In this document: piece after piece, positions 35,701 through 48,982 of the stretch
Layout: every line of letters begins with the position of its first letter
Numbering within the stretch: position 1 is the stretch's first letter
Origin: Pseudobdellovibrionaceae bacterium
GTDB lineage: Bacteria > Bdellovibrionota > Bdellovibrionia > Bdellovibrionales > Bdellovibrionaceae
Assembly: GCA_021731025.1 (NCBI GenBank)
Contig: JAKFYD010000021.1
Span: 1 to 64,000, forward strand
DNA length: 64,000 bases
Direction of reading: 5' to 3'
Notes under the pieces: model-generated
Told to the model about the DNA's origin: nothing
What the model saw: the letters and a program-made list of their open reading frames with translations, nothing else
The model's database searches: none
Translations under genes and position numbers: made by a program

Positions 35701-36198
35701 TCAGATTTGGGGAGCTGTCATATCGGCTCGAAGTTCGATTTTTCTTTCTTCGGAAGTTCCTTTTGGGCTGACATATTTGATTAAAATTTGATTCGTGCCT
35801 GGAATAAGCTGAATCAGATCGGTTTGATATTGATCTTTGCCAAACGGCATTATTGAAGCCGTGTACCCATTCGTTTGGTTGACAATTTTTACGGCCGAAT
35901 AAGAACTTTTGCTGGCGCAGCCACGCCCTTTTACTTGGACAAATTGTCCATTCACATTCACTGGTAAAACCTGTTTTGAATTCAGATCGCAAAGATTGAC
36001 GGAAATGGATTGGAATTTCATCTTCGCCGGTTTCGCCGAAATCTTTTTGATTGAGGCCGGTGCGCGATCCGATTCCGGTTTTTCAGCGAGAATCGTTGGA
36101 TCATTTGAAGCTACGCTTGAAACAGTCACTGCCGTAAAGGCAATCAATGCTAAGACAAAGCCCACTAAAAATTTGTTTTCTTTGCTGATGACATACAT
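35701..36198 (-). CDS. single-pass periplasmic-facing protein of unknown function
   Basis: The 165-residue protein has an N-terminal anchor (KFLVGFVLALIAFTAVTVSSVAS), a Lys/Pro/Ala linker and a C-terminal beta-rich, Ig-like segment (IQLIPGTNQILIKYVSPKGTSEERKIELRADM) with two cysteines (NLCDLN, GRGCASK). It lies downstream of exbB-exbD on the same strand, but a 193-base gap carrying a palindromic element intervenes. It could replace TonB or TolA as ExbBD partner, but I see no TonB motif. Function unknown. Confidence 0.65.
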   Translation of the reverse strand: MYVISKENKFLVGFVLALIAFTAVTVSSVASNDPTILAEKPESDRAPASIKKISAKPAKMKFQSISVNLCDLNSKQVLPVNVNGQFVQVKGRGCASKSSYSAVKIVNQTNGYTASIMPFGKDQYQTDLIQLIPGTNQILIKYVSPKGTSEERKIELRADMTAPQI

Positions 36199-36255: not shown

Positions 36256-36379
36256 AAATTATCTTTTAGAACTTAAATCTCTGCGTTCTCCTCCCTCGAG
36301 GTCCCTGCGACGTACAGGAAGTATGCCTCAGTCGCCCTCGGTCGTGCGGCCTTGATCTTTAAGTTCTAAAAGATAATTT
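36256..36379 (-). repeat. dispersed palindromic element, copy A
   Basis: Outer arms 36256-36277 and 36358-36379 are perfect 22-bp inverted repeats around an 80-base interior. The interior matches the one at 48215-48293 almost base for base, in the opposite absolute but same relative orientation to transcription. The arms are different from those of the other copy. It begins 12 bases after the exbD stop and ends 57 bases before the start of the 35701-36198 gene. In the interior, CGAGG can pair with CCTCG. Confidence 0.9.
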
Positions 36380-36391
36380 TCGTATTTAGAT

Positions 36392-36808
36392 TTATTTTTT
36401 GGGAGTCGCCTTATCGATGCTGATGGCGAATTTTTTAACGCCCACACTTTTGACGATGTCGAGAACGCCCACAACTCGACCATGAGCTACATCTTTATCA
36501 GCAGAGATGATGGCCTGAACCTCTGGATTTTTCGAAAGCTCTTCCGCGGCTCGCTGTGAAACTTGAGCTTCATCCGTGAAACTTCCGTTGAGATTAATTC
36601 TTCCATCCGCAGTTAAGGCAATGTTCAATTTGCTTGGATTTGTTTGGTCACCCGAAGCCGCCTTTGGCAAATTCACGTTGATCGTTGGTTTGATAAACAT
36701 GGGTGCAGTCACCATAAAAATAATGAGAACCACTAAGATGATATCAACTAAGGGAACAACGTTAATCTCTGAAAGTGGTTCGTCGTCCTGATTTGATTGC
36801 ATCGCCAT
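36392..36808 (-). CDS. exbD: ExbD/TolR family protein
   Basis: The 138-residue protein has one N-terminal membrane helix with the proton-path Asp in NVVPLVDIILVVLIIFMVTAPM, followed by a periplasmic ExbD domain (INVNLPKAASGDQ, ALTADGRINLNG, VISADKDVAHGRVVGVLDIVKSVGVKKFAI). It works with ExbB as an ion-driven motor. It starts two bases after the exbB stop. No tonB is adjacent. Confidence 0.92.
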   Translation of the reverse strand: MAMQSNQDDEPLSEINVVPLVDIILVVLIIFMVTAPMFIKPTINVNLPKAASGDQTNPSKLNIALTADGRINLNGSFTDEAQVSQRAAEELSKNPEVQAIISADKDVAHGRVVGVLDIVKSVGVKKFAISIDKATPKK

Positions 36809-36810
36809 AA

Positions 36811-37440
36811 TTAAAGACCTTTTTTCTTCGCGTAAGCGAGACCCATTTCTTTCACGCTTTCTAAACTTTGAAAAATCCTTTTCAATTTACGGCTGTAGTA
36901 ATTATAAAAAATAACAGCGGGAATCGCGACAAAAAGACCTGCAGCTGTTGCCACAAGAGCCAGTGAAATCCCGGCCATCACTGTTTGCTGACCTGCTTCT
37001 GAAGCTTGTGCCAAATCATTGAAGGCTTTCATGATCCCTAACACGGTTCCTAAAAGACCAATGTAGGGAGCATTTGATCCTACAGTTGCTAAAAATCCTA
37101 AAAATTTCTCGAGATCGGCTCGCTCGGTGAGAGCAAAAGTGTTAAAAACTTCTTCCAGTCCCCGACTGCCGGCGTCTTTCATATGGCGAAGAGCATATCC
37201 CGCTGATCTTCCCTCGATCGAATCAGGATCACGGGCAATGGATTCGAATTCATCCACACTGTTACTCTGAAGAGCCGAACGGATACGAGTTCGAACTTTA
37301 TCGGATTGGGAAGAAACTTTTCGAAGAGCAAAGAAGCGCTCTAGAATCATACCTAAGCTGATGATACTTAAAAGCACCAGGATCCATAAGACAAATTGAT
37401 CTGCAACGTGGGCAAAAGCAAAAATTTTTTCAGTCAGCAC
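36811..37440 (-). CDS. exbB: ExbB/TolQ family proton channel protein
   Basis: The 209-residue protein has three membrane helices (LWILVLLSIISLGMILERFFAL; APYIGLLGTVLGIMKAF; ISLALVATAAGLFVAIPAVIFYNYY) and the MotA/TolQ/ExbB signature GLLGTVLGIMKAFNDLA. It forms the pentameric channel that pairs with ExbD to energise outer-membrane processes. It is the first gene of a short minus-strand unit, divergent from the sulfatase-like gene. Confidence 0.92.
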   Translation of the reverse strand: MLTEKIFAFAHVADQFVLWILVLLSIISLGMILERFFALRKVSSQSDKVRTRIRSALQSNSVDEFESIARDPDSIEGRSAGYALRHMKDAGSRGLEEVFNTFALTERADLEKFLGFLATVGSNAPYIGLLGTVLGIMKAFNDLAQASEAGQQTVMAGISLALVATAAGLFVAIPAVIFYNYYSRKLKRIFQSLESVKEMGLAYAKKKGL

Positions 37441-37546
37441 GCAAACTCCCTTTTCTTTATTGTCACCAAGGATATCTATTCAGTATTCTCTTGGAATAGA
37501 TGCTGGTCAACAATGGATCGCTAGCGACGAAAGTGATTTTAAATTA

Positions 37547-39361
37547 ATGGTTTCATTTCTTTTCAGGATGATGGTCCTGGTCTATTTCGTTTTTACTTTC
37601 GCCGGCTGCCGCGTCGAAGAAAAAAAGTCCATTTTAATATTAACTTTTGAACATTTAAACTCTCAAGAAAACTTATGTAACCGTGAGAAAAATAATTTAA
37701 GAAATTCGGGCTTTTTGGAAATTTGTCCTGAAAGTATTCGTTTCACTCATGCTTATGTTCCATCAACATTGAGCTTACCCAATCTGAGCACTTTGATGAC
37801 GGGGCTATACCCTTATCAACATCAGGTTCGGCACAATGGTCCACCTGGGCTTGGTGCCGAGTATGTGACATTGGCAGAAATTGCTGTCCAAAATAATTTT
37901 CGAACAGCTTTTTTTTCCGGGGGCCCTCCCGTTTTTAGAAAGTCAGGATTAAATCAAGGCTTCGAACTTTTTGACGAGAAAGTCAAAATCACTCCCCGCA
38001 CTTTTCACAGTCCCTTTGCCGATTTGATTCAAGCATATCGCGAATGGATCGCCAATGAAGTTCGCCGCGACTCTTTTCTAGCGACTTTTTATATTCCTGA
38101 TCTGTTATTTAAAGATTCTTTAAAAACAGATCTCATTGAGGCCCGCAGTCCTGGTTACGAAAATCAACTCGAAGAAATTGACGAAGGCCTTTTTCAACTC
38201 ATCACCATGATGAAGAAGAATCAAATCTGGAATAAAACCACCGTTATTATTTTAGGTCTGAACGGTCGCCCGAATCCCGAACGTGGCCACGTTCTGCATC
38301 CTCTCAACCTTCACTCTGAAAACACCCAAGTGACTTTGCTGATTAAGCCTGCGTACGAAGAATCTCAGTCCGTTCATTCTCACCGAACTTTCGACGCTCC
38401 GGTATCGGTCGCTGATGTGGGAAGAACCATCTTTGAAATTTTGGGGCAGGGCTTACGAAAGAAAAATGCCAGTGAAACTCTTTTTCCCGTGTTCAGTTTG
38501 AAACAGAATTTAGAATCGACTTCAGCACCGTGGCCTGGCCAACGCGTAATTCCCATCGAATCGGGATGGATGTTTGGTCATGAATTGGGTGAAATTCGTA
38601 GTGCTGCTGTTCTTAATCATGAACTGATTTTATTCGATGGTTCGCCAAAACTTTACAATACTCTTACGGACCGGTGGGAAAGTCGTCCTTACGTGTTCAA
38701 TAACTACAGCGAAAAACCCATTGCTTCGACTTTGCGAAAGCTCTCTGAGGCCGGTTATAAGCCCTGGCGCTGGCCCGCTTCTGTACCCCAAGAAATATTT
38801 CGCATTCCCCAAGAGCTTTGGTGGAATCCTGTAAACGAAACTAAACTTCTGGAACGAATCAATCAGATCACAAGTGCGACAACACCATTGAACCCCTTGG
38901 ATCTTTGGGGAGCTCTTTTTTCATTGCAAAAAAAACAAAGTAAAAAACTGGGTAAATTTATAAAGCGTCTTCATTACCCCGAGTGGAGTTCCGAATTTAA
39001 TCCCTGCTACCAACTGATTGACAGGAAGGATGCTAACTTTACCGATAAGAAAAAGTGCTCTTCAAAAATTTTTCTATTGTGGTTGGACTGGACTAAATCT
39101 GAAAAGAAAACCGGCCCGGATTTAATGAAAACGGCTCTGTTCAAGGCTTTGGCTCAGCAGGAAATTCAACGACGCATTCAAAAGATCAACTGGGGATTGA
39201 ATTTAATTTGGAACGACTACGAATTATCGATACCACAAATTAATGAATTGGATTGGGTGATGTCCAAGACTGAAAATACCCGCGATCGGGCCCTCTTTTC
39301 CCGCAGCCTCGAAAATATCGAAAAACAAGTCTATCAAGATTCAGATTTTATCTCTTACTAA
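37547..39361 (+). CDS. sulfatase-like lipoprotein, probably catalytically degenerate
   Basis: I favour ATG 37547, giving a signal MVSFLFRMMVLVYFVFTFAGC with the lipobox FAGC; a TTG at 37460 is less likely. The ~604-residue protein resembles the sulfatase/alkaline-phosphatase superfamily: VPSTLSLPNLSTLMTGLYPYQHQVRHNG followed by VIILGLNGRPNPERGHVLHP and a VADVGRTIFEILG block. The usual N-terminal metal-binding DTLR is here LTFEHLN, and no clear C/S-x-P-x-R formylglycine site is present. It may be a pseudoenzyme. The C-terminal ~250 residues are unrecognised. A plausible promoter (TTGTCA, 18 bases, TATTCT) lies at about 37460-37490. Confidence 0.65.
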   Translation: MVSFLFRMMVLVYFVFTFAGCRVEEKKSILILTFEHLNSQENLCNREKNNLRNSGFLEICPESIRFTHAYVPSTLSLPNLSTLMTGLYPYQHQVRHNGPPGLGAEYVTLAEIAVQNNFRTAFFSGGPPVFRKSGLNQGFELFDEKVKITPRTFHSPFADLIQAYREWIANEVRRDSFLATFYIPDLLFKDSLKTDLIEARSPGYENQLEEIDEGLFQLITMMKKNQIWNKTTVIILGLNGRPNPERGHVLHPLNLHSENTQVTLLIKPAYEESQSVHSHRTFDAPVSVADVGRTIFEILGQGLRKKNASETLFPVFSLKQNLESTSAPWPGQRVIPIESGWMFGHELGEIRSAAVLNHELILFDGSPKLYNTLTDRWESRPYVFNNYSEKPIASTLRKLSEAGYKPWRWPASVPQEIFRIPQELWWNPVNETKLLERINQITSATTPLNPLDLWGALFSLQKKQSKKLGKFIKRLHYPEWSSEFNPCYQLIDRKDANFTDKKKCSSKIFLLWLDWTKSEKKTGPDLMKTALFKALAQQEIQRRIQKINWGLNLIWNDYELSIPQINELDWVMSKTENTRDRALFSRSLENIEKQVYQDSDFISY

Positions 39362-39377
39362 ACTAGTAACTAGGGCT

Positions 39378-40061
39378 TTAGGTAAGTCCTAGGATTCCAA
39401 GCCAAAAAGGCTGATCCTCCATTTGTGAGCCAATTTTATTAATAATCTTTTGTAAATCAATTTCAGAATCTGTTAATTGCCAAATATCTCGTGGGATTTT
39501 CGATGAAGAAAATAATATGATCTGATCTTCTTCTTCCATAACACAACTTCCAATGCTCAATGGGCAACTGCTTTCCAATCCAAGCCCCGCTGCCGGCAAA
39601 GGGCTAGCTTCCGCGTGAATTCCCAAGACGTCTCGCATTTGATCATTGCTCACACAGAGCGGATGTAAATCTTGTCCTGGCTTTTTCATAAACAACTGTG
39701 AACTACCACACTGCACCCAAGATAGCTGACGATCTGTTTTCCACAGGGCCACCACTTCAACCAAGCTGTTGTACTCAATTTTATTTTCGCCGCGATAAAG
39801 ACGATCGTTGCTCAAGAGTGCAGCAACCCGAAGAGCATTTGCTTCGCTGGTGTAACAAGACATAAACTCGAAAGGGGAAGTCACCTCGACATCACCACGA
39901 GTCGCACTGACATACTTTACGATCTCTTCAACAACGGGCATTCCGGCATCGGCATTTCCCCAGGATGTAGCAATGACCCAAAATTCGCCGCCGAACTCTT
40001 CGCGGACGATAGGTTTGGGTCGAGCACTGCGACCACTGTAAGATCGTTCTCTTAAGCGCAT
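39378..40061 (-). CDS. PP2C-like protein lacking metal ligands (probable pseudophosphatase)
   Basis: The 227-residue protein follows the PP2C order (VIATSWGNADAGMPVVEEIVKYV; ALRVAALLSNDRLYRGENK; LSWVQCGSSQLFMKKPGQDLHPLC; ILFSSSKIPRDIWQL). At each place a bacterial PP2C has a metal Asp (ADGMGG, GDSR, SDG) this one has another residue (ATSWGN, GSSQ, SSSK). Aspartates for Mn/Mg binding are therefore missing, so catalysis is unlikely. The alignment is by eye. It follows three FHA genes, whose domains normally read phosphothreonine. It could serve as a scaffold or sensor. Confidence 0.6.
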   Translation of the reverse strand: MRLRERSYSGRSARPKPIVREEFGGEFWVIATSWGNADAGMPVVEEIVKYVSATRGDVEVTSPFEFMSCYTSEANALRVAALLSNDRLYRGENKIEYNSLVEVVALWKTDRQLSWVQCGSSQLFMKKPGQDLHPLCVSNDQMRDVLGIHAEASPLPAAGLGLESSCPLSIGSCVMEEEDQIILFSSSKIPRDIWQLTDSEIDLQKIINKIGSQMEDQPFWLGILGLT

Positions 40062-42047
40062 TCAGTTTGCTCCATACTTTTTCAGCTTGATCATCGCTTT
40101 TTGATAGAAATTTCCATCGGGGATATCTTGTTCGAGAATTTTTTTCCATTTACCGATGGCGCCCGAGTTATTTTCATCCGGCATCACTTTACCAAAACTT
40201 TCTTCAATGATGGCTTCATCCCAAAGGATTTTCATTTCTTTCTGTAACGCTTTAACGTAATTATCAATTTTATCATTGAGCTCATCCGACTGAGGATTCA
40301 CCTTGCGAGCCATTCGTAAATTGATAATAGCTTGTTTATAGTTTTTATTTTGAGCTAACTTTTCGGCTTCTGCCAATAGACCTGCGGTCTTTGTCCCGAT
40401 CTGCGACTTGAGACTGCTCAAAATTCTTTGGGCGCGCGACTTTAAATTCTTCGGGTCAGCCAACTTAGAATTAGTCACTTTACGATAAGCCTCAATGGCC
40501 TCGGTCATATTTTCATTTTTATCAATTCTTTCAGCTTGGCTAAAGAGACGCTGTAATTTTTCGGCTTGCTCTTGATATTCTTTTTTGTCCTGGGATTGCT
40601 TTTGCATTTGCATTTCCAGCAGGGCGAATTCGGCACGTAAAGTTTCAAGCAAGTGATGTGTCGGATTCAAAGTCACAGCTGGACTTATGCATGCTTCGAA
40701 TTCTTCTCGGGTCGTTTGAGGTTTCAAATTCAATTTGCAATTGGACGTCACTTCATTAATTGTATGCTCTTGTTCAGCTAACATTTTTTCTTTAGCTTCA
40801 AATTCTTTTTGTTTAGTAATGAGAAAAATTTTCTGCTCGGCACTTTGATCCAAGTTCTCGATGTCTTTAGCCCAAAAACTTTTTTTATATTCGGGCATAA
40901 CTTCACGAATTTTTGAAAGCTCTGCGCGACAAAGTTCTGAGTTATCAGATTCATAATAACTTTGCGCCAATTGAAAGGATTGTTTCACTAAAATTTGCTG
41001 TTCTTTGGACAAACGGTTAAAAGGATCATTGGGATTCCCTTTAGAGTTTCCAGCAATGGTCCTCCCGGTATTTTTTGTATTATCCATTAACATTCCAGCG
41101 ACGAGAACCACCGCCAAAACACCGATGACCACTTGAAGCTTTTTAGCTTTCAGCTTAGCTAAGAAATTTTCGGCTTGGACTGGGGGAGGCTGAGCAGCAC
41201 CCGGATTTCCATAGGGCGCATAAGGATCTGGGCCATAAATCCCTGGATCAGCAACGGGATAATTTCCATGAGCAGCTGGCGGTGGAAACGATTCCACCGG
41301 CGTAGTTTCAACCAAAGCTCGTGAAACTTGATCGTAGTCAACATTCTGCACTCGCTCCATAAAATTGGGATCATGCAATTCAAAATACAAGGTGTTATCT
41401 AAAACCGTAATGGCGTCGCCGCTTCGGAGGGGAGTCACATCCGTCGATGAAATATTATTTCCATTCAGAAGGGTGCCGTTGACGCTTCCCAGATCAATGA
41501 TGCCGTAGCCGCTGTCAGTTTTGCGGATTTCAAATTGTCGTCGGCTGACCCGCTGATCTTTAATGGGGATTGCGCTGGAAGAATCACGGCCTGCAAGCCA
41601 GGCATCGCCCCCCTCTAAACGCAAGAGTTGAGTTTCCTGGCGATCACTACCAATAAATTTTATAAAGGGGACTTGCTCGAGCCGACCGACAAAAGTTCGG
41701 TCCTCATTCACTTCATGAGCGCCTAAGCTTAAAGAAGAATTCCTATTCTCTACAGCTTCCACAATAAAATCAAATTCGTAAGGAGGAATATGAAATACCA
41801 GTGAATCCGTCAGAGGGAGATTTTGAACCTTCTCGTTTTGGAAAAGCAATTCACCAAACCGCGAAACAACCTCTAACTGCCATTCGTTTTGTTTACAAAG
41901 AAGATGAAAGTGTTCTCGAGAGATTGTTTTTTCTGCCAATAAGGGGATATCGCAGTCTTCCTTGCGACCAGCAACATAGATTTTTCCCGGATCCAAGGGA
42001 ATATCCTGCAACAGTTTTCCGTTGTGCTTGACCTTCAGCCGGGCCAT
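40062..42047 (-). CDS. double-FHA membrane protein with C-terminal TPR-like region
   Basis: The 661-residue protein has FHA domain 1 at about residues 25-80 (KIYVAGRKEDCDIPLLAEKTISREHFHLL), FHA domain 2 at about 150-225 (DAWLAGRDSSSAIPIKDQRVSRRQFEI, LGSVNGTLLNG), a Pro/Tyr/Ala linker, one membrane helix near 303-320 (LQVVIGVLAVVLVAGMLM), and a long helical, TPR/coiled-coil region. FHA domains bind phosphothreonine. It lies between an FHA/TPR gene and the PP2C-like gene in the Tad-linked cluster. Possibly a docking platform for the pilus or secretion machine. Confidence 0.8.
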   Translation of the reverse strand: MARLKVKHNGKLLQDIPLDPGKIYVAGRKEDCDIPLLAEKTISREHFHLLCKQNEWQLEVVSRFGELLFQNEKVQNLPLTDSLVFHIPPYEFDFIVEAVENRNSSLSLGAHEVNEDRTFVGRLEQVPFIKFIGSDRQETQLLRLEGGDAWLAGRDSSSAIPIKDQRVSRRQFEIRKTDSGYGIIDLGSVNGTLLNGNNISSTDVTPLRSGDAITVLDNTLYFELHDPNFMERVQNVDYDQVSRALVETTPVESFPPPAAHGNYPVADPGIYGPDPYAPYGNPGAAQPPPVQAENFLAKLKAKKLQVVIGVLAVVLVAGMLMDNTKNTGRTIAGNSKGNPNDPFNRLSKEQQILVKQSFQLAQSYYESDNSELCRAELSKIREVMPEYKKSFWAKDIENLDQSAEQKIFLITKQKEFEAKEKMLAEQEHTINEVTSNCKLNLKPQTTREEFEACISPAVTLNPTHHLLETLRAEFALLEMQMQKQSQDKKEYQEQAEKLQRLFSQAERIDKNENMTEAIEAYRKVTNSKLADPKNLKSRAQRILSSLKSQIGTKTAGLLAEAEKLAQNKNYKQAIINLRMARKVNPQSDELNDKIDNYVKALQKEMKILWDEAIIEESFGKVMPDENNSGAIGKWKKILEQDIPDGNFYQKAMIKLKKYGAN

Positions 42048-43100
42048 CTAGAATCTCCCTTCAAGCCCCAGGCTGCATTCACGCAGATATTTTTCAGCCT
42101 CATCATACTTTTCGTAACTGGAACGATCTCCCTGCGCTAAAACCAAAACTTGCGAGAAAGCGGATTTACACAGACGATAGTTTTTTCGCTCTTTGTTTTT
42201 TAAGCCCTCAATAAAATTAAACTCCATCACTTTGCGGTGCTTAATGGTGGATTGCTCGTAGTACTTGCGGGCTTCGATGTGTTCAGGATTTAGGTTCAAG
42301 ACAATGCGGAAGTATTCCCGCGCGCGAACGTATTGTCCTTTTTGATAATCACGGAAACCCTTGATAAAATTTTCTTCAGCTCGCTTGTAACTGAGATTAT
42401 TTTTTTTGCTGAGCCGAGCCTCAAGAATTTCAATTTGTTCCTGAGACTTTTGCATTTCTTTTTCAATAGCTTCGCTATTACGTATCGATTCTTTCTTGCC
42501 GCTCTTTGGATTGGAATTAAAGAAGGCAAAATAAAGAACCATACCGATAACACCAAGTATAAGGTAAAATCGAAATCGGCCATTGGATTCTGGAGCGGCC
42601 TTGTTCATTGAATATTGATTCGCTTGCGGGCGGGAATGAACCCCGATGTTAGCCATCGGTGCTATATGAGCCTTTGCCAAGGGAGCTTGCGCTAAAGGTT
42701 TCGGCCCACCGACAGCGGCCGCCGGGGTTAAGGGCTGATTCGTACGAACTGGCGTCAGATGGGAAGGCGGTTTAGCCGTCACCAAACGAAATTTTATTTC
42801 TGATTCACCAATAGTTAAAACACAATCTTTTTGCAGCTGATGAAATTCAGTTTTAGCTCCATCCACAAGAACGTAATTTTTTTGACTGACATTGGTAAAA
42901 TAAAGTTGGCCATCTGAATTTTTAATTTCAGCGTGAACACGACTCACTCGTAAATCTTGGGACAAAACGACTTGATTTTCGTTTCCCCGACCGATGCTAA
43001 TCTGAGGTTTGGTAAAGGTAAACTTCTGCCCTGAGTGAGGACCCTTCACCACTTCCAATTCATAAGAAAGAGTTAGACCAACCTTCGGAGCAGCACTCAT
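42048..43100 (-). CDS. FHA-domain membrane protein with TPR-like C-terminus
   Basis: Start at ATG 43100, overlapping the upstream stop as ATGA. The ~350-residue protein has an FHA domain near the N-terminus (QISIGRGNENQVVLSQDLRVSRVHAEI, then LYFTNVSQKNYVLVDG), a Pro/Ala linker, a membrane helix (FYLILGVIGMVLYFAFF), and a helical region with TPR-like repeats (FIKGFRDYQKGQYVRAREYFRIVLNLNPEHIEARKYY; FIEGLKNKERKNYRLCKSAFSQVL). Same architecture as its neighbour, suggesting duplication of the design. Confidence 0.82.
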   Translation of the reverse strand: MSAAPKVGLTLSYELEVVKGPHSGQKFTFTKPQISIGRGNENQVVLSQDLRVSRVHAEIKNSDGQLYFTNVSQKNYVLVDGAKTEFHQLQKDCVLTIGESEIKFRLVTAKPPSHLTPVRTNQPLTPAAAVGGPKPLAQAPLAKAHIAPMANIGVHSRPQANQYSMNKAAPESNGRFRFYLILGVIGMVLYFAFFNSNPKSGKKESIRNSEAIEKEMQKSQEQIEILEARLSKKNNLSYKRAEENFIKGFRDYQKGQYVRAREYFRIVLNLNPEHIEARKYYEQSTIKHRKVMEFNFIEGLKNKERKNYRLCKSAFSQVLVLAQGDRSSYEKYDEAEKYLRECSLGLEGRF

Positions 43101-44743
43101 CCCGGAGCCCCCGATTGCGGCAAGATGGTGATCAAGAAATAGCAAATGCTATTCCCGCTTAAAAAGCCTTGGCACTGAATCGTGCACATTAAACCATTGA
43201 ACTCAAGATGATCCGAATGAATGGCATAAGGCACTTCACGGCTTTTACCCATAAGATGTTCAATGTTTTGTTGAAGTGAATTATCAGGAATAAATGTGAG
43301 GCCATTCTGCTGTAAAGTTGGTAACGAGACTCTTGCCAATTGCTCGAAGCTGGAGTTTGCCGAAAGGATTCGATTATCCGCTGCAACCACCATCGCCGGC
43401 GCACCAATCATCTTTGTTAAGTTACTGGCTTCTTCATCGCGATTTTCACTCGAGGATTCTGCCTGTCCTCCCCCGCCTTCGCCGTGATGCGATCGGGTTA
43501 AAACGCTATTCATATTGGCTATCAGATTCTGCAGTGGCTCGAATTGAAAAGTCATTTCCAGATCAGAGCGCTTTTCACGAAGTGCTGTATCCAATTGTAA
43601 ACTTAAATTTTTAATTGGGAATTCAATCAACTTATAAATAAAGAAGAAAAGAAAGAAACCCACCAGCGAGGCAATCATTAAGGTCTGCATAAACAAACTG
43701 ATGGTCTTTCCCTCGTCGAAAGCTAATGAAGACACATCATAGATAACGATGGCATGAGCTTTTGTTTTCATCTCGCCGTTTTCAACATCGTATCCTTCAA
43801 TAGGAGCACTCGCCGCGATCGTTGAAGAATCTAACTCGACTGTTAAGGCTCGACGTTCTTTCCTGACTTTTTGAACAAAAGATAATTCCGAAACCCTTCC
43901 CGCTTTGGTCGAAGGCGCAAGAATCATCCCGTCGATGTCCTGAATAATAAAGACGGTTTTCACTCCCTCTTCAACTTCGGCCGAGTAAGTGCTTAAGGCC
44001 CCAGAGTTTTCCACAACCGCTTTCTTATTTGTGGCCGCTAAATTCCGAGCTAAAGAAGAGGCACGGTTTCGGCTCTCTTTCAAAATGCTGCTTTTCGCTA
44101 ATTGCGACATCGGGATCATGGAAAGTAACGTGACGATAAAAATAAAGGCGCCCACGAAACCTAACAACACCAATTTAAAATCGAACATCTGCGCTAATTT
44201 ATAGACACCAGGTAAAACGACTCTTTCTAAATAAGCTTTGAACTGCTCAAGAATTCCCGCAAAAAGATTGGGACGAGCCGAAGGCGCTGATTCAGCCATC
44301 TCAGGAGCAGGTGCAGCCTGAGCATAAGCTTGAGACTGGACACCAACGTGAGGTTGAGGAAAATTTCCCATTTGCAAGGCCGCATTGCCCACAGCTGGGT
44401 AAGCATTTCCGCTATGAGAAACCGCTGGAAGTTGCGAGCGCGCGGGTCTTAGTTCTTGAGCCGGTACAATATCTAATAATATTTCGTGCAGACTGAACTT
44501 TTCGCCCAAATGAAGAATGCTATTTTGAATTTTAATTCCATTCACGTAAGTGCCATTGCTCGATTTTAAATCGACAATAATGATTTTATCCTTAAGAACT
44601 TGGATTTCACAGTGAGCTTTAGATACTCCTTGAGCTATAACTTGAATATCAGCTTGGCCTGCTCGACCGAGAATATTTTTTCCACTTTTTAAATTAAAAA
44701 TTTGACCCGCTTGCGGGCCATTGAGAATTCTAACGGCCCACAT
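43097..44743 (-). CDS. FHA-domain, two-helix membrane protein with PAS-like C-terminus
   Basis: The 548-residue protein has an FHA domain (NILGRAGQADIQVIAQGVSKAHCEI, LKSSNGTYVNG) at residues 20-75, a linker, a membrane helix (~195-215, LVLLGFVGAFIFIVTLLSMIPM), an extracytoplasmic sensor-like region, a second membrane helix (~350-370), and a C-terminal PAS-like domain (APAMVVAADNRILSANSSFEQLARVSL). No kinase or GGDEF domain follows. It resembles a sensor without an output enzyme, so the FHA domain may be the output by binding a partner. It overlaps the DUF192 gene by 14 bases. Confidence 0.8.
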   Translation of the reverse strand: MWAVRILNGPQAGQIFNLKSGKNILGRAGQADIQVIAQGVSKAHCEIQVLKDKIIIVDLKSSNGTYVNGIKIQNSILHLGEKFSLHEILLDIVPAQELRPARSQLPAVSHSGNAYPAVGNAALQMGNFPQPHVGVQSQAYAQAAPAPEMAESAPSARPNLFAGILEQFKAYLERVVLPGVYKLAQMFDFKLVLLGFVGAFIFIVTLLSMIPMSQLAKSSILKESRNRASSLARNLAATNKKAVVENSGALSTYSAEVEEGVKTVFIIQDIDGMILAPSTKAGRVSELSFVQKVRKERRALTVELDSSTIAASAPIEGYDVENGEMKTKAHAIVIYDVSSLAFDEGKTISLFMQTLMIASLVGFFLFFFIYKLIEFPIKNLSLQLDTALREKRSDLEMTFQFEPLQNLIANMNSVLTRSHHGEGGGGQAESSSENRDEEASNLTKMIGAPAMVVAADNRILSANSSFEQLARVSLPTLQQNGLTFIPDNSLQQNIEHLMGKSREVPYAIHSDHLEFNGLMCTIQCQGFLSGNSICYFLITILPQSGAPG

Positions 44744-45077
44744 AGAGTTCGTCTCCTTCCTGAATTCCTAAACGAGAAATTGTTCCTGCAGGAAGTTCAA
44801 AGACAGAGCTTGCGCTCCAAACTGGAAGGACTAATCTCCATGGACGAACTTCCCTTTTGAGGGATTTTACTTTTAAAGTTCGATCAACAAAAATACAATC
44901 AATGGCAAAATTCATAAAACAAGTGTGAATGCTGTTGCAACGATGAATCCATAATCCCTGTTGATCCAACAGAGATTTCCGTCCCATAAGGCCAATTCCC
45001 CGACTCCAAAATCCGTCGGCGATTTCCAACTGAGAAGAGATAGTTATGTTCTTTGTTCTATTTTCCAACACGGGCAT
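44730..45077 (-). CDS. DUF192 family protein
   Basis: The 115-residue protein matches DUF192: LEIADGFWSRGIGLMGRKSLLDQQGLWIHRCNSIHTCFMNFAIDCIFVDR, then KREVRPWRLVLPVWSASSVFELPAGTI. The family is small, widespread and of unknown function; members often sit next to Tad/Flp pilus genes in deltaproteobacterial-type genomes. It begins two bases after the tadC stop. Confidence 0.85.
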   Translation of the reverse strand: MPVLENRTKNITISSQLEIADGFWSRGIGLMGRKSLLDQQGLWIHRCNSIHTCFMNFAIDCIFVDRTLKVKSLKREVRPWRLVLPVWSASSVFELPAGTISRLGIQEGDELYVGR

Positions 45078-45079
45078 CC

Positions 45080-45988
45080 TTAATTGTTTCCATACATAAA
45101 TGAAATTGCGACCGGACCAAAAACCATGATGAACACAGCGGGAACAATAAAAATCATCATGGGCACCAAAATCGCTTGCGAAGCACGAGCTCCTGCTTTT
45201 TCAGCACGCACAAATCTTTCCAATCTCATTTGCACAGTTTGTTCTTTCAAAACTCGAGAGATGGGTGCACCACTGGCTTCAGAATCGATGAGCACGGCCA
45301 CAAAACTTGTAATTTCCGACATGTCTAAACGTTCACCAAACTCTTTGAGGGCTGTGGCTTTTGCTGCACCCAACTGAACATCTTTCAACACAATGGAAAG
45401 TTCTTCAGCAAGCACACTCTTTTTGGTTTCTGCTTTATCAACCAGCAACTGAATTGCCGCGAAGAAATCCATACCGGCCTCGACCGAAAGAGCTAACAAA
45501 TCAATGTAAAAGGGCAAATGCTCGCGCACATTTTGTTCACGGATTTTTTTCTGAGCTTTGGCGTCCATGATGGGAGCGTAAAAACCAAAAGGCATCATTC
45601 CCAGGATAACGATATTGCTCAGATCAAGTTCCAATGCGAAATTCATCACTAAGACAAAAAGAGGAATCATCACTCCCCATAGAATTTGCATTCCAATAAA
45701 CTCATCTTCGTTCAGCACTCGTGAAATTCCAGCGGTCTTGATGGTCTGCCTGATTTGCTTTCGGTAAGATTCATTTTTAATTCTTAAAGCATGTTGCAAA
45801 GTGAATTGATGAATCAAAGGGCGAGATAATTTAATCAAGGTCCGATCTGTTTTTTCAGGTTCGCTGTTGTTGGCCCAAGACAAACTTTGTTTATCTGCGT
45901 TATTGGAGATCAAAGCCGATACAAGTAAGTAAACGGCCAAACCACCAAATAAAAGTCCTCCGAAAAGTAAAAAACCGGCACTTCCCAT
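45080..45988 (-). CDS. tadC: Tad/Flp pilus platform protein TadC
   Basis: The 302-residue inner-membrane protein matches T2SSF/TadC: HLPFYIDLLALSVEAGMDFFAAIQLLVDKAE, then LSIVLKDVQLGAAKATALKEFGERLDMSEITSFVAVLIDSEASGAPISRVLKEQ and a terminal AILVPMMIFIVPAVFIMVFGP. With TadB it forms the pilus assembly platform. tadA, tadB and the secretin are not in the window; maf is divergent on the other side, so this is the first gene of an isolated TadC-FHA operon. The rest of the Tad machine must be elsewhere if it functions. Confidence 0.9.
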   Translation of the reverse strand: MGSAGFLLFGGLLFGGLAVYLLVSALISNNADKQSLSWANNSEPEKTDRTLIKLSRPLIHQFTLQHALRIKNESYRKQIRQTIKTAGISRVLNEDEFIGMQILWGVMIPLFVLVMNFALELDLSNIVILGMMPFGFYAPIMDAKAQKKIREQNVREHLPFYIDLLALSVEAGMDFFAAIQLLVDKAETKKSVLAEELSIVLKDVQLGAAKATALKEFGERLDMSEITSFVAVLIDSEASGAPISRVLKEQTVQMRLERFVRAEKAGARASQAILVPMMIFIVPAVFIMVFGPVAISFMYGNN

Positions 45989-46016
45989 TTGTTCCTCTTT
46001 GTGTTCAATTCAAGCT

Positions 46017-46610
46017 ATGCATCATCTCATTCTAGCTTCTGAGTCCCCCCGCCGAAAACAACTCCTTCAGGATGCAGGTTTTCAATTTGAGACTCTCCTA
46101 GTGAAAGTATCGGAAATTCCTGGAAAAAGTTTGACGGTTGACGAGAAAATATTATCCAACGCGAAAGAAAAATCGGATGCAGCCTGGACCCGACTTAAGC
46201 CTGAAAAGCGCGAGCCTTTTGTCCTTTTAACCGCAGATACCGAGGTCATTTTAAACAACGAGCTTTTAGGTAAACCTCAGGACGAAACTGATGCCATTCG
46301 CATGTTGACGGAATTATCGGGGACCATTCACCAGGTGAAAACTGGACTTTGGCTTCGTGAAAGTGTGACAGAAAAAGAAGTGTCTCATATCGAGACAACC
46401 CAGGTCCATTTCAAGAAACTCTCTCGTGAGTCCATCGAAAATTATGTGAAATCGGGCGAAGGTACAGATAAGGCAGGCGGTTACGCCATTCAAGGTCAAG
46501 GGGCCCAATTCATCAAAGAATTTGTCGGAAGCTATGACAATGTGGTAGGTCTGCCTGTTCAAGTTCTGAAAAGAATTTTGAACGAAAATGCTTGGGTAAT
46601 TCGGGGTTAA
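46017..46610 (+). CDS. maf: Maf-type nucleoside triphosphate pyrophosphatase
   Basis: ATG 46017 (MHHLILASESPRRKQLLQD) is preferred; the ORF start upstream adds nothing conserved. The ~197-residue protein has the signature ASESPRRKQLL, then LLTADTEVILNNELLGKPQDETDAIRMLTELSG, the TTQVHFKKLS segment and GTDKAGGYAIQGQGA. Maf proteins hydrolyse dTTP, UTP and modified nucleotides. It leads the maf-yggS-proC-divIVA plus-strand run. Confidence 0.93.
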   Translation: MHHLILASESPRRKQLLQDAGFQFETLLVKVSEIPGKSLTVDEKILSNAKEKSDAAWTRLKPEKREPFVLLTADTEVILNNELLGKPQDETDAIRMLTELSGTIHQVKTGLWLRESVTEKEVSHIETTQVHFKKLSRESIENYVKSGEGTDKAGGYAIQGQGAQFIKEFVGSYDNVVGLPVQVLKRILNENAWVIRG

Positions 46611-46637
46611 TACGGAATCAATCTGGGAAATGGCGCA

Positions 46638-47342
46638 GTGAAAACGAAATCTGAAATCCTCTCTGAAGTCGAAGAAAAATTAAGCCAGCTCGGCCGACCA
46701 AAAACTTCTGTGATGATTCTTGCCGTCTCGAAATTACAACCCACTGAAAAAATCTTACAACTTCATCGCGAAGGCCAAGTTGATTTTGGCGAAAACTATG
46801 TTCAAGAAGCCCTTTTTAAGATGGAAGAACTTCAAGAGTCTCCTCTGCGATGGCATCTGATCGGCCATCTTCAAAAAAATAAAGTTAAACTTTCTGTGGG
46901 ACGATTTGAGTGCATTCACTCTGTGGATTCTTTGGAACTTGCAGAAAAGATCAACGCCGAAGCCGCAAATTTGGGAATTCGCCAAAAAATTCTTTTACAA
47001 ATTAATCAAGCTGAAGAAACAAAAAAAACGGGATTCCAACCTGAAACATTTATGAAAAGCTGGCCAGCACTGGAAAAATTGAAATCTCTGCAAATCTGCG
47101 GCTTGATGTGCCTGCCGCCCTTGTTTCAGAATCCCGAAGAGACTCGGCCTTATTTCCGGGAGCTCCGTGAACAACTGCTTTCTTTAAGAGAACAAGCTGA
47201 TCTTAGTCTTCACCCCTTGGATCAACTTTCTATGGGCACCAGTCACGACTATCTGGTCGCTGTGGAAGAAGGCTCAACAATTATTCGTTTAGGCACAATC
47301 TTATTTGGCGAACGTGTTATAGACATGAAAGGACAACTGTGA
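46638..47342 (+). CDS. yggS: PLP homeostasis protein YggS/PLPBP
   Basis: GTG 46638 is the only reasonable start. The 234-residue protein has MILAVSKLQPTEKILQLHREGQVDFGENYVQEALFKM with the PLP-binding Lys in SKLQP, then RWHLIGHLQKNKVKL, ICGLMCLPP, and SMGTSHDYLVAVEEGSTIIRLGTILFG. It buffers pyridoxal 5'-phosphate. The GTGA at its stop starts proC. yggS next to proC is widely conserved. Confidence 0.94.
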   Translation: MKTKSEILSEVEEKLSQLGRPKTSVMILAVSKLQPTEKILQLHREGQVDFGENYVQEALFKMEELQESPLRWHLIGHLQKNKVKLSVGRFECIHSVDSLELAEKINAEAANLGIRQKILLQINQAEETKKTGFQPETFMKSWPALEKLKSLQICGLMCLPPLFQNPEETRPYFRELREQLLSLREQADLSLHPLDQLSMGTSHDYLVAVEEGSTIIRLGTILFGERVIDMKGQL

Positions 47343-48169
47343 ATCCTCTGTTAAAATCAAAACGAATTGGATTTATTGGCTCTGGAAATATGGCCCAAGC
47401 CATGATCAAAGGAATGTTAGAGTCTCAACTAACGGTTGCAGATCATCTCTTTGTTTCGAATCGCACTCCTGGAAAATTAATGAAGATGTCTGAAAATTAT
47501 AAGGTGAACGTTTGCCAAACCAATGAAGAGTTGGTGGAAAAATGCGACATCATTATTTTAGCAGTGAAGCCCCAAGATCTCATCGCCGCCATTGAACCGA
47601 TTGCCCAGATTTTTTTGGATAAGCAAGTGGTTATCAGTTTAGCTGCAGGAATCACGATGCAAACTTTAGAAAAGCATTTGCCTCAATGCCGAGTCGTTCG
47701 TTTGATGCCGAACACTCCTGCCATTATTGGCCGAGGCACTTTGGGTTTTTTCATGAATGAACCTGACGAAGGCTTAGAAACTCTGATTGAAGATTTATTT
47801 TCTCCTTTAGGTTCTGTGATGAAACTTCAAGATGAAGATCAATTCGAAGCTTTCATGATCGCCTGCTCTTCGGGAACTGGCTTTGTCTTCGAGCTGATGA
47901 CTTACTGGCAAGAATGGATCGAGGAACATGGTTTCGATCCCGAAGTCGCAAAAGCGATGACTGTTGAAACTTTTTTAGGCGCCGCCGAGCTGGCTTACAA
48001 ATCACCCGACGTAGGTCTGGAAGAGCTGCAAGCACGAGTCGCTTCGAAAAAAGGCGTAACAGCTTCTGGACTTGAGTCCATGAGAGAACTCGAAATCGAA
48101 CGCGCCCTGCGCGTAAGCTTCGAAAAAGCCGCTCTAAGAAATAAAGAGATGGCCCGACTGTTGAAATAA
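47339..48169 (+). CDS. proC: pyrroline-5-carboxylate reductase
   Basis: The GTG at 47339 overlaps the yggS stop (GTGA), with AAAGGA upstream. The 276-residue enzyme makes proline from pyrroline-5-carboxylate. It shows the NAD(P)-binding IGFIGSGNMAQAMIKGML, DIIILAVKPQDL, VRLMPNTPAIIGRGTLGF, and the C-terminal GVTASGLESMREL loop that forms the active site. Twenty-two bases after its stop a palindromic repeat begins. Confidence 0.95.
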   Translation: MNPLLKSKRIGFIGSGNMAQAMIKGMLESQLTVADHLFVSNRTPGKLMKMSENYKVNVCQTNEELVEKCDIIILAVKPQDLIAAIEPIAQIFLDKQVVISLAAGITMQTLEKHLPQCRVVRLMPNTPAIIGRGTLGFFMNEPDEGLETLIEDLFSPLGSVMKLQDEDQFEAFMIACSSGTGFVFELMTYWQEWIEEHGFDPEVAKAMTVETFLGAAELAYKSPDVGLEELQARVASKKGVTASGLESMRELEIERALRVSFEKAALRNKEMARLLK

Positions 48170-48191
48170 CGTTGTTATCTATGATTTTCTT

Positions 48192-48316
48192 GTGGGAGCA
48201 ACCAAAACTTTAAAGATCAAGGCCGCACGACAGAGGGCGACTGAGACGTACGTCTGTACGTCGCAGGGAGCCCGACGGAGGAGAACGCAGAGATTTAAAG
48301 TTTTGGTTGCTCCCAC
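48192..48316 (+). repeat. dispersed palindromic element, copy B
   Basis: Outer arms 48192-48214 and 48294-48316 are perfect 23-bp inverted repeats. The 79-base interior (48215-48293) is the same element as copy A at 36256-36379. An apical hairpin at 48245-48262 (GACGTAC, 4-base loop, GTACGTC) and flanking CTG/CAG and GGGC/GCCC pairs give a long rod when transcribed. It begins 22 bases after the proC stop and ends 60 bases before divIVA. Confidence 0.92.
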
Positions 48317-48376: not shown

Positions 48377-48982
48377 ATGAAGATTTCGCCACTCGATATC
48401 ACTCACAAAACTTTTGATCGCAAAATGATGGGCCTTGATCCGGATCAAGTTCATAATTTTCTTCAACATGTGGCTGCGCAAATGGAATCCATTATGCGTG
48501 AACGCAATCAATTGCGCGAAGAACTTCGCGAACGCGAATTGAATTTGCTCGAGTACAAAGAGCGCGACAAAGTTTTGAAAGATACAATTGCTACAGCATC
48601 ACAGATGACGGACCGAATGCGCGGTGATGCTGAACGCGAAGCTAAATTGATCATTGCCGACGCCCAACAAAAATCTGAACTCATCACTCGGGACGCTCGC
48701 GATTCCTTGAAAAAAACTTATCAAGAAATCAGCGATCTGAAACGGGCTCGCTTGCAATTCGAAGCAAATTTAAAAGCATTAGCCCAAGCTCATCTCAGCA
48801 TTTTGGATCAAGGTGAAAAGTACATGCCCAGCGTGAATTTACCAAATTCATCGAGCGCAACGGCTGCTACAAACTCGGCTCCTGGCCCTACGCCAGTGAG
48901 CGGCGCTGGCGCCGAGAGTGGTGGATATCGTTCAGCGATCTTTCGCTCTTCCGATATTTCACCTTTATCTTCAAATTCTTAA
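48377..48982 (+). CDS. divIVA: DivIVA-domain protein
   Basis: The 201-residue protein starts MKISPLDITHKTFDRKMMGLDPDQVHNFLQHV, the DivIVA N-terminal membrane-curvature-binding domain, followed by a long coiled coil (QMESIMRERNQLREELRERELNLLEYKERDK and on to about residue 150) and a Ser/Ala/Gly-rich tail. DivIVA oligomers mark poles and division sites, mainly in Gram-positives; in this lineage it may organise the pole or septation of the filament. GGAGG precedes the ATG at 48377. Order yggS-proC-divIVA mirrors Gram-positive synteny. Confidence 0.9.
   Translation: MKISPLDITHKTFDRKMMGLDPDQVHNFLQHVAAQMESIMRERNQLREELRERELNLLEYKERDKVLKDTIATASQMTDRMRGDAEREAKLIIADAQQKSELITRDARDSLKKTYQEISDLKRARLQFEANLKALAQAHLSILDQGEKYMPSVNLPNSSSATAATNSAPGPTPVSGAGAESGGYRSAIFRSSDISPLSSNS

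Follow-up and report, generated by a model that had tools for sequence, protein, structure and literature searches.

Copies A and B in the Window

The window, i.e., the whole 64-kb stretch of DNA that was analyzed, harbors two repeats: copy A (36256–36379), whose core is read from the minus strand, and copy B (48192–48316), whose core is read from the plus strand. Copy A is situated between a gene for an ExbD/TolR protein (36392–36808, minus strand; PF02472) and a downstream gene for a 165-aa protein without a Pfam match (35701–36198, minus strand). Copy B resides between a gene for a pyrroline-5-carboxylate reductase-like protein (47339–48169, plus strand; PF03807, PF14748) and the downstream gene for DivIVA (48377–48982, plus strand; PF05103). 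Together with the genome size, these neighboring genes point to a Bdellovibrio-like host. The distances to the genes claimed in the earlier note, i.e., 12 and 22 nt from the upstream stop codons and 57 and 60 nt to the next start codons, were confirmed.

The outer arms of copy A comprise 22 bp and are 100% complementary: the 5' arm on the core strand (36358–36379, minus strand) begins 12 nt past the exbD-like stop codon and pairs with the 3' arm at 36256–36277 (minus strand). The left and right arms of copy B (48192–48214 and 48294–48316, plus strand) form a perfect repeat of 23 bp, also with 100% complementarity. Among the inverted repeats listed for the window, only these two arm pairs are perfect at a length of at least 22 bp, the remaining pairs being 72–88% complementary. 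The enclosed cores of 80 nt in A (36278–36357, minus strand) and 79 nt in B (48215–48293, plus strand) are fitted by one covariance model (77 bits, E 2.4e-19, and 87 bits, E 3.3e-22, respectively). The pair of repeats with perfect copy-specific arms and near-identical cores described in the earlier note is thus real. The arms had also been regarded as unrelated; this appears to hold for A versus B, except for TTTAA(A) beside the core, but not for the family, since a loose arm consensus is discernible across 15 copies.

Both cores contain the conserved internal-loop strands CAAGGCCGCA (the 5' side of J1/2; 36345–36354 on the minus strand in A, 48218–48227 on the plus strand in B) and GAGAACGCAG (the 3' side; 36281–36290 on the minus strand in A, 48281–48290 on the plus strand in B). 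In copy B, the P2 helix is formed by GGGC (48235–48238, plus strand) and its partner GCCC (48270–48273, plus strand). The apical hairpin P3 consists of GACGTAC..GTACGTC in B (48245–48262, plus strand) and of GGCATAC..GTACGTC, with one mismatch and one G.U pair, in A (36309–36327, minus strand).

The Repeat Family and Its Spread

A search with copy B in the genome of the window (G000) recovered 15 near-complete copies of a short, non-coding, multi-copy element of about 121 bp (family 1), plus several fragments, giving roughly twenty occurrences in all. Both checks suggested earlier, for further copies in the genome and for the pairing of their arms, turned out positive, the arms pairing in every full copy. 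The same genome possesses about nine copies of a second, related family of the same architecture with a core and arms of its own. The arms of family 2 (G000:C3:60263-60403 and L241-L250) end in AATAAGCCCG, and their outer halves are variable. One family-2 copy is nested within a family-1 core on contig C9 (G000:C9:34900-35109), and another (C55:5461-5606) has family-1 sequence on either side, indicating insertion of one element into another. Where family-2 elements are nested (L016, L019, L242, L245), the family-1 core has lost some of its sequence.

Across Bdellovibrionota, the model R1 revealed a patchy, multi-copy presence in 19 of 369 genomes. With the model R2, 18 copies were detected in G044, 24 in a Nitrospirales MAG (G369), about 116 in a deltaproteobacterial MAG (G370, CSMAG_2994), and 18 in G371; within the phylum of G369, 80 of 198 sampled genomes carry the element. 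The first matches across phyla came from an exact-pattern search, so their identity at the pattern bases exists by construction; the later model searches across phyla had no exact-pattern requirement.

In CSMAG_2994, the core lies within a longer element with constant ends and direct repeats of about 6 bp. These copies (L030-L094) have the ends GTGTCCATCC..GGATGGAAAC and TANNTA-like 6-bp direct repeats, and many of them are found at contig ends. One arm type is common to most copies of G369, and in other genomes of its phylum the arms are variable again. Constant ends in one genome, a single prevailing type in another, and variable ends elsewhere mean that the core is common to elements with different ends. 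In Nitrospirales and others in this phylum (L306-L316, L326-L329), nearly every copy displays one mid-arm mismatch, TTTTGA versus TTTTCA, which may mark the left versus the right ends.

The family was absent from phage records, and an exact-pattern search of viral contigs gave no match; plasmid records compared with the related CSMAG core gave weak partial matches only. The open-access literature, searched also for sequence strings, yielded no description of this element family. It appears to be an unnamed repeat superfamily spread across Nitrospirota, Bdellovibrionota, and deltaproteobacterial genomes.

Conserved Fold of the Core

In the alignment of 15 copies, 97.1% of the cells pair, and 21 of the 35 pairs display double changes. 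Neither the paired fraction nor the covariation score was reached in any of 500 shuffles, and both were abolished by sliding the pairing partner. All three stems (P1, P2, and P3) covary, and the two internal loops are conserved. The plan common to the families comprises the P1 arms, the loop CAAGGC(CGCA)/(GAG)AACGC.G, P2, a loop around GACYGAG/CGCAGGGAG, and the apical P3. One strand carries tandem G.A loops that are conserved and, in P3, a G.U pair that is nearly invariant, and the GATCAAGG strand is predicted to fold more stably than its complement in 15 of 15 copies. The conserved pairing proposed for the core is, hence, strongly supported by covariation in three stems and by internal loops kept across phyla. 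At the curated score, Rfam 15 had 0 matches in the window, and a permissive Rfam search of four loci returned chance-level matches only.

Arms Matched within Copies and Different between Them

The pairing of the arms in G000 extends to position 21 and then falls to background, so the standard arm of the family comprises 21 bp. The agreement of the arms is 0.943 within a copy versus 0.597 between copies (the maximum of 2000 shuffles being 0.778), and 82 departures from the arm consensus are matched in both arms versus 18 that are unmatched. In a relative from the same family (G024), 22 copies fall into two arm subfamilies. The larger one shows 0.922 agreement within versus 0.696 between copies, and the smaller one, with 0.929 equaling the shuffle maximum of 0.929, is too uniform to exceed the shuffles. 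Arms fairly constant between copies were encountered only in CSMAG_2994 and in the larger group of G369. As a side observation, G024 contains 51 sites of AAGACTTTTCAAACACGCTC within 3 mismatches, the reversed-pattern control giving no matches; arm sequence lacking a core takes the form there of short palindromes or of solo arms next to stop codons.

Unmatched arm changes accumulate in G024 at 0.038 per nt, near the 0.056 per nt of core changes, and clearly decayed copies of this genome are decayed in arms and core alike. Young copies possess one to several matched arm changes, often with no unmatched ones. The arm mismatches of G000 and G024 together comprise 14 G.U and 15 A.C, i.e., there is no G.U excess. 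A strand bias in these mismatches was considered and rejected: it is suggestive in G000 only (8 G.U versus 2 A.C) and vanishes once G024 (6 versus 13) is added. The similar rates of unmatched arm and core changes, the decay in both, and the lack of a G.U bias favor matching at birth over slow compensatory evolution. The pattern fits copies that start out with identical arms and decay later. A stronger constraint on the core than on the arms may play a part as well, which makes the relative ages of the copies uncertain.

Evidence for Mobility

Direct repeats of roughly 9–11 bp flank four young copies in G024 (L141, L147, L148, L151), outside both arms; around the G000 copies, no direct repeats above chance were found. 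The site orthologous to that of L122 is empty in G032 and G035, where neither arms nor core are present. In G001, the other genome of the genus that was compared, the element is absent at the A and B sites; reading these as empty sites was rejected, since the identity of about 70% is too low for exact junctions. Support for the mobile repeat envisaged in the earlier note thus comes from the direct repeats and the nesting, from the empty site, and from the patchy distribution. The rebuilding of a matching arm at insertion, suggested along with it, is unlikely if the arm is taken from the target, given the location of the G024 direct repeats outside both arms. Neither a cognate transposase nor an autonomous copy came to light; the arm pattern, searched in G024, gave no inward-facing pair around a gene.

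Orientation and Placement Near Genes

The copies occur mostly in short intergenic spaces, often directly beside a stop codon, and many of them lie between convergent genes (gene calls here are ORF-based). With the core strand taken as plus, a minus-strand stop codon of the neighboring gene is located −3 to +8 nt from the right end in 22 of 37 copies; the left end is equally close to a stop codon in 4 copies, versus these 22 (p 0.0005). The simplest account of this bias would be an asymmetric target preference. The copies in CSMAG_2994 do not display such a bias.

Among the codirectional copies, 15 are opposite to the orientation of A and B versus 3 in it (p 0.008), and these three are A, B, and one more. 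Hence, the same orientation relative to transcription noted earlier is true of A and B but represents a minority in the family. The GATCAAGG strand is antisense to the adjoining upstream gene in most copies, and the constant orientation to a regulated gene characteristic of cis-regulatory elements was not observed. An attenuation or processing device of fixed orientation is not supported, given the varying orientation, the prevalence of copies that, relative to A and B, are antisense to the upstream gene, and the decay of old copies.

Two placements are candidates for a retained function. An orthologous copy near csrA has a core 97.5–98.7% identical in three species of the genus g6, and its non-coding flanks beyond the csrA side are mostly 72–84% identical. 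It resides about 110 bp upstream of csrA (G029:C83:22002, G217:C39:38941, and G035:C99:27532; L106, L206, and L097). The comparison of core and flanks suggests that at least one copy has a role at its site. In the flgK 5' UTR, a copy found in two species (G029:C83:16967 and G217:C39:34393; L110 and L195) has undergone three matched arm changes and a swap of the P2 helix with the pairing kept. These copies may have been retained for function or homogenized by conversion, and they leave room for the RNA explanation at some sites.

Possible Origin of the Matched Arms

On balance, A and B are probably copies of a non-autonomous, MITE-like palindromic element, the arms of which are matched by arm-to-arm copying and the core of which must fold. 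The element is built of 21-bp terminal arms (P1), a conserved loop, P2, a second conserved loop, and the apical P3, and the entire unit, arms and core together, would insert. One arm would be copied onto the other by replication template switching, an established maker and maintainer of perfect stems (PMC8794818), or via a fold-back intermediate; a fold-back transposition intermediate would match the arms just as template switching does. The arms of one copy would then drift together, and the core may vary less due to the need to fold and be recognized for mobility; a putative transposase would act in trans. Counting against this reading are the searches that turned up no cognate transposase or autonomous copy, the G000 copies with no direct repeats above chance, the constrained csrA-linked copy, the copy-specific ends, unusual for a transposase substrate, and the right-end stop bias (22 versus 4), which is unexplained by a symmetric element. 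Overall, the interpretation in the earlier note is partly supported: structure and mobility hold up, a fixed-orientation attenuator is not supported, and an arm rebuilt from the target is unlikely.

A rather unlikely alternative is a family of functional structured RNAs (cis-regulatory or small RNAs), in which selection on the fold of the GATCAAGG-strand RNA gives rise to covariation. Such selection would agree with the covarying P1, P2, and P3, the tandem G.A loops and the near-invariant P3 G.U kept on one strand, the lower folding energy of this strand in every copy, the csrA copy constrained in three species, and the matched arm and P2 changes of the flgK copy. It is difficult to reconcile with the antisense position of this strand relative to the adjoining upstream gene in most copies, the lack of a G.U excess in the arm mismatches, old copies decayed in arms and core, G001 lacking the element at the A and B sites, and the lack of an Rfam match. 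It is also unlikely that selection for mobility keeps the arms of this mobile element paired through ordinary compensatory substitutions, with no arm-to-arm copying: unmatched wobble pairs do exist, and G000 alone leans toward G.U, but G024 leans the opposite way, and young copies have several matched arm changes with no unmatched ones.

If the element were a REPIN-like hairpin of single-stranded DNA, moved by a Y1 (RAYT) transposase that recognizes the folded core, just such a folded core with conserved loops and free stems would be expected, and Y1_Tnp proteins were found in 14 of 14 genomes tested, including 8 in G000. This explanation is nevertheless quite improbable, as element-free genomes also carry Y1_Tnp genes (seven in G001), the Y1 loci examined have no flanking element and no full element within them, and IS200-type transposition would not be expected to leave direct repeats at the ends. 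The eight G000 genes, RAYT-like and weak (e.g., C3:92037, C5:14107, C6:16272), are more than in most relatives. Highly improbable is a mobile core that drops into host hairpins or copies the target flank into an arm, so that the arms are host sequence. The copy-specific arms beside stop codons and the arm-like sequence without a core in G024, as palindromes and solo arms, would fit it, but the arms follow a subfamily consensus and are uniformly 21 bp long, the direct repeats lie outside both arms, and the empty L122 site lacks the arms as well; insertion of the core into host terminators or solo arms was rejected on the latter two grounds.

A broader and doubtful extension of the MITE-like reading is a widespread class of mobile elements recognized by the single-stranded (RNA or DNA) fold of the core, not by the ends. 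Each move would regenerate one of the arms from its partner, leaving the ends free to drift, and the targeting would be stop-proximal with a preferred orientation.

Comparison with Known Systems and Significance

The A/B family resembles MITEs in being short, non-coding, intergenic, and multi-copy, with a stable predicted hairpin and terminal inverted repeats that measure about 20 bp. Some copies have direct repeats (about 9–11 bp at several G024 copies and about 6 bp in CSMAG_2994, none above chance in G000). The family differs in that the arms vary between copies of one genome and match within each, in that conservation across phyla resides in the inner core and not in the ends, and in that no autonomous partner was found. 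Each copy does possess terminal inverted repeats (21 bp, 94% paired, with a sharp end), but these are not common between copies (agreement 0.60 in G000 and 0.70 in G024b). In its behavior, the family is like a MITE; it is not assigned full membership, since the copies do not have their arms in common and a cognate transposase did not come to light.

Compared by description only, ERIC and the Rickettsia palindromic elements are, like the A/B family, intergenic palindromes (about 100–150 bp) with conserved folding and, unlike it, have conserved ends. REPINs and REP elements with RAYT transposases are likewise hairpins of small size scattered through intergenic regions and probably mobilized in trans (PMC3116915), but the A/B family is 120 bp long, with 21-bp arms of free sequence and two conserved internal loops, has direct repeats in a relative, and is not linked to RAYT genes. 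Hairpins maintained by template switching are alike in their perfect stems, in multi-base matched changes, and in the copying of one arm onto the other that is proposed here; this mechanism was described for RNA genes (PMC8794818), and its extension to the termini of a mobile repeat is inferential.

Stem covariation is commonly taken to prove that an RNA is functional; in this family, it is found in a multi-copy mobile repeat whose copies seem to decay once inserted. The element family therefore serves as a natural system for testing if template switching or fold-back copying is able to yield “compensatory” changes without selection on RNA, and it includes possibly domesticated copies near csrA and flgK.
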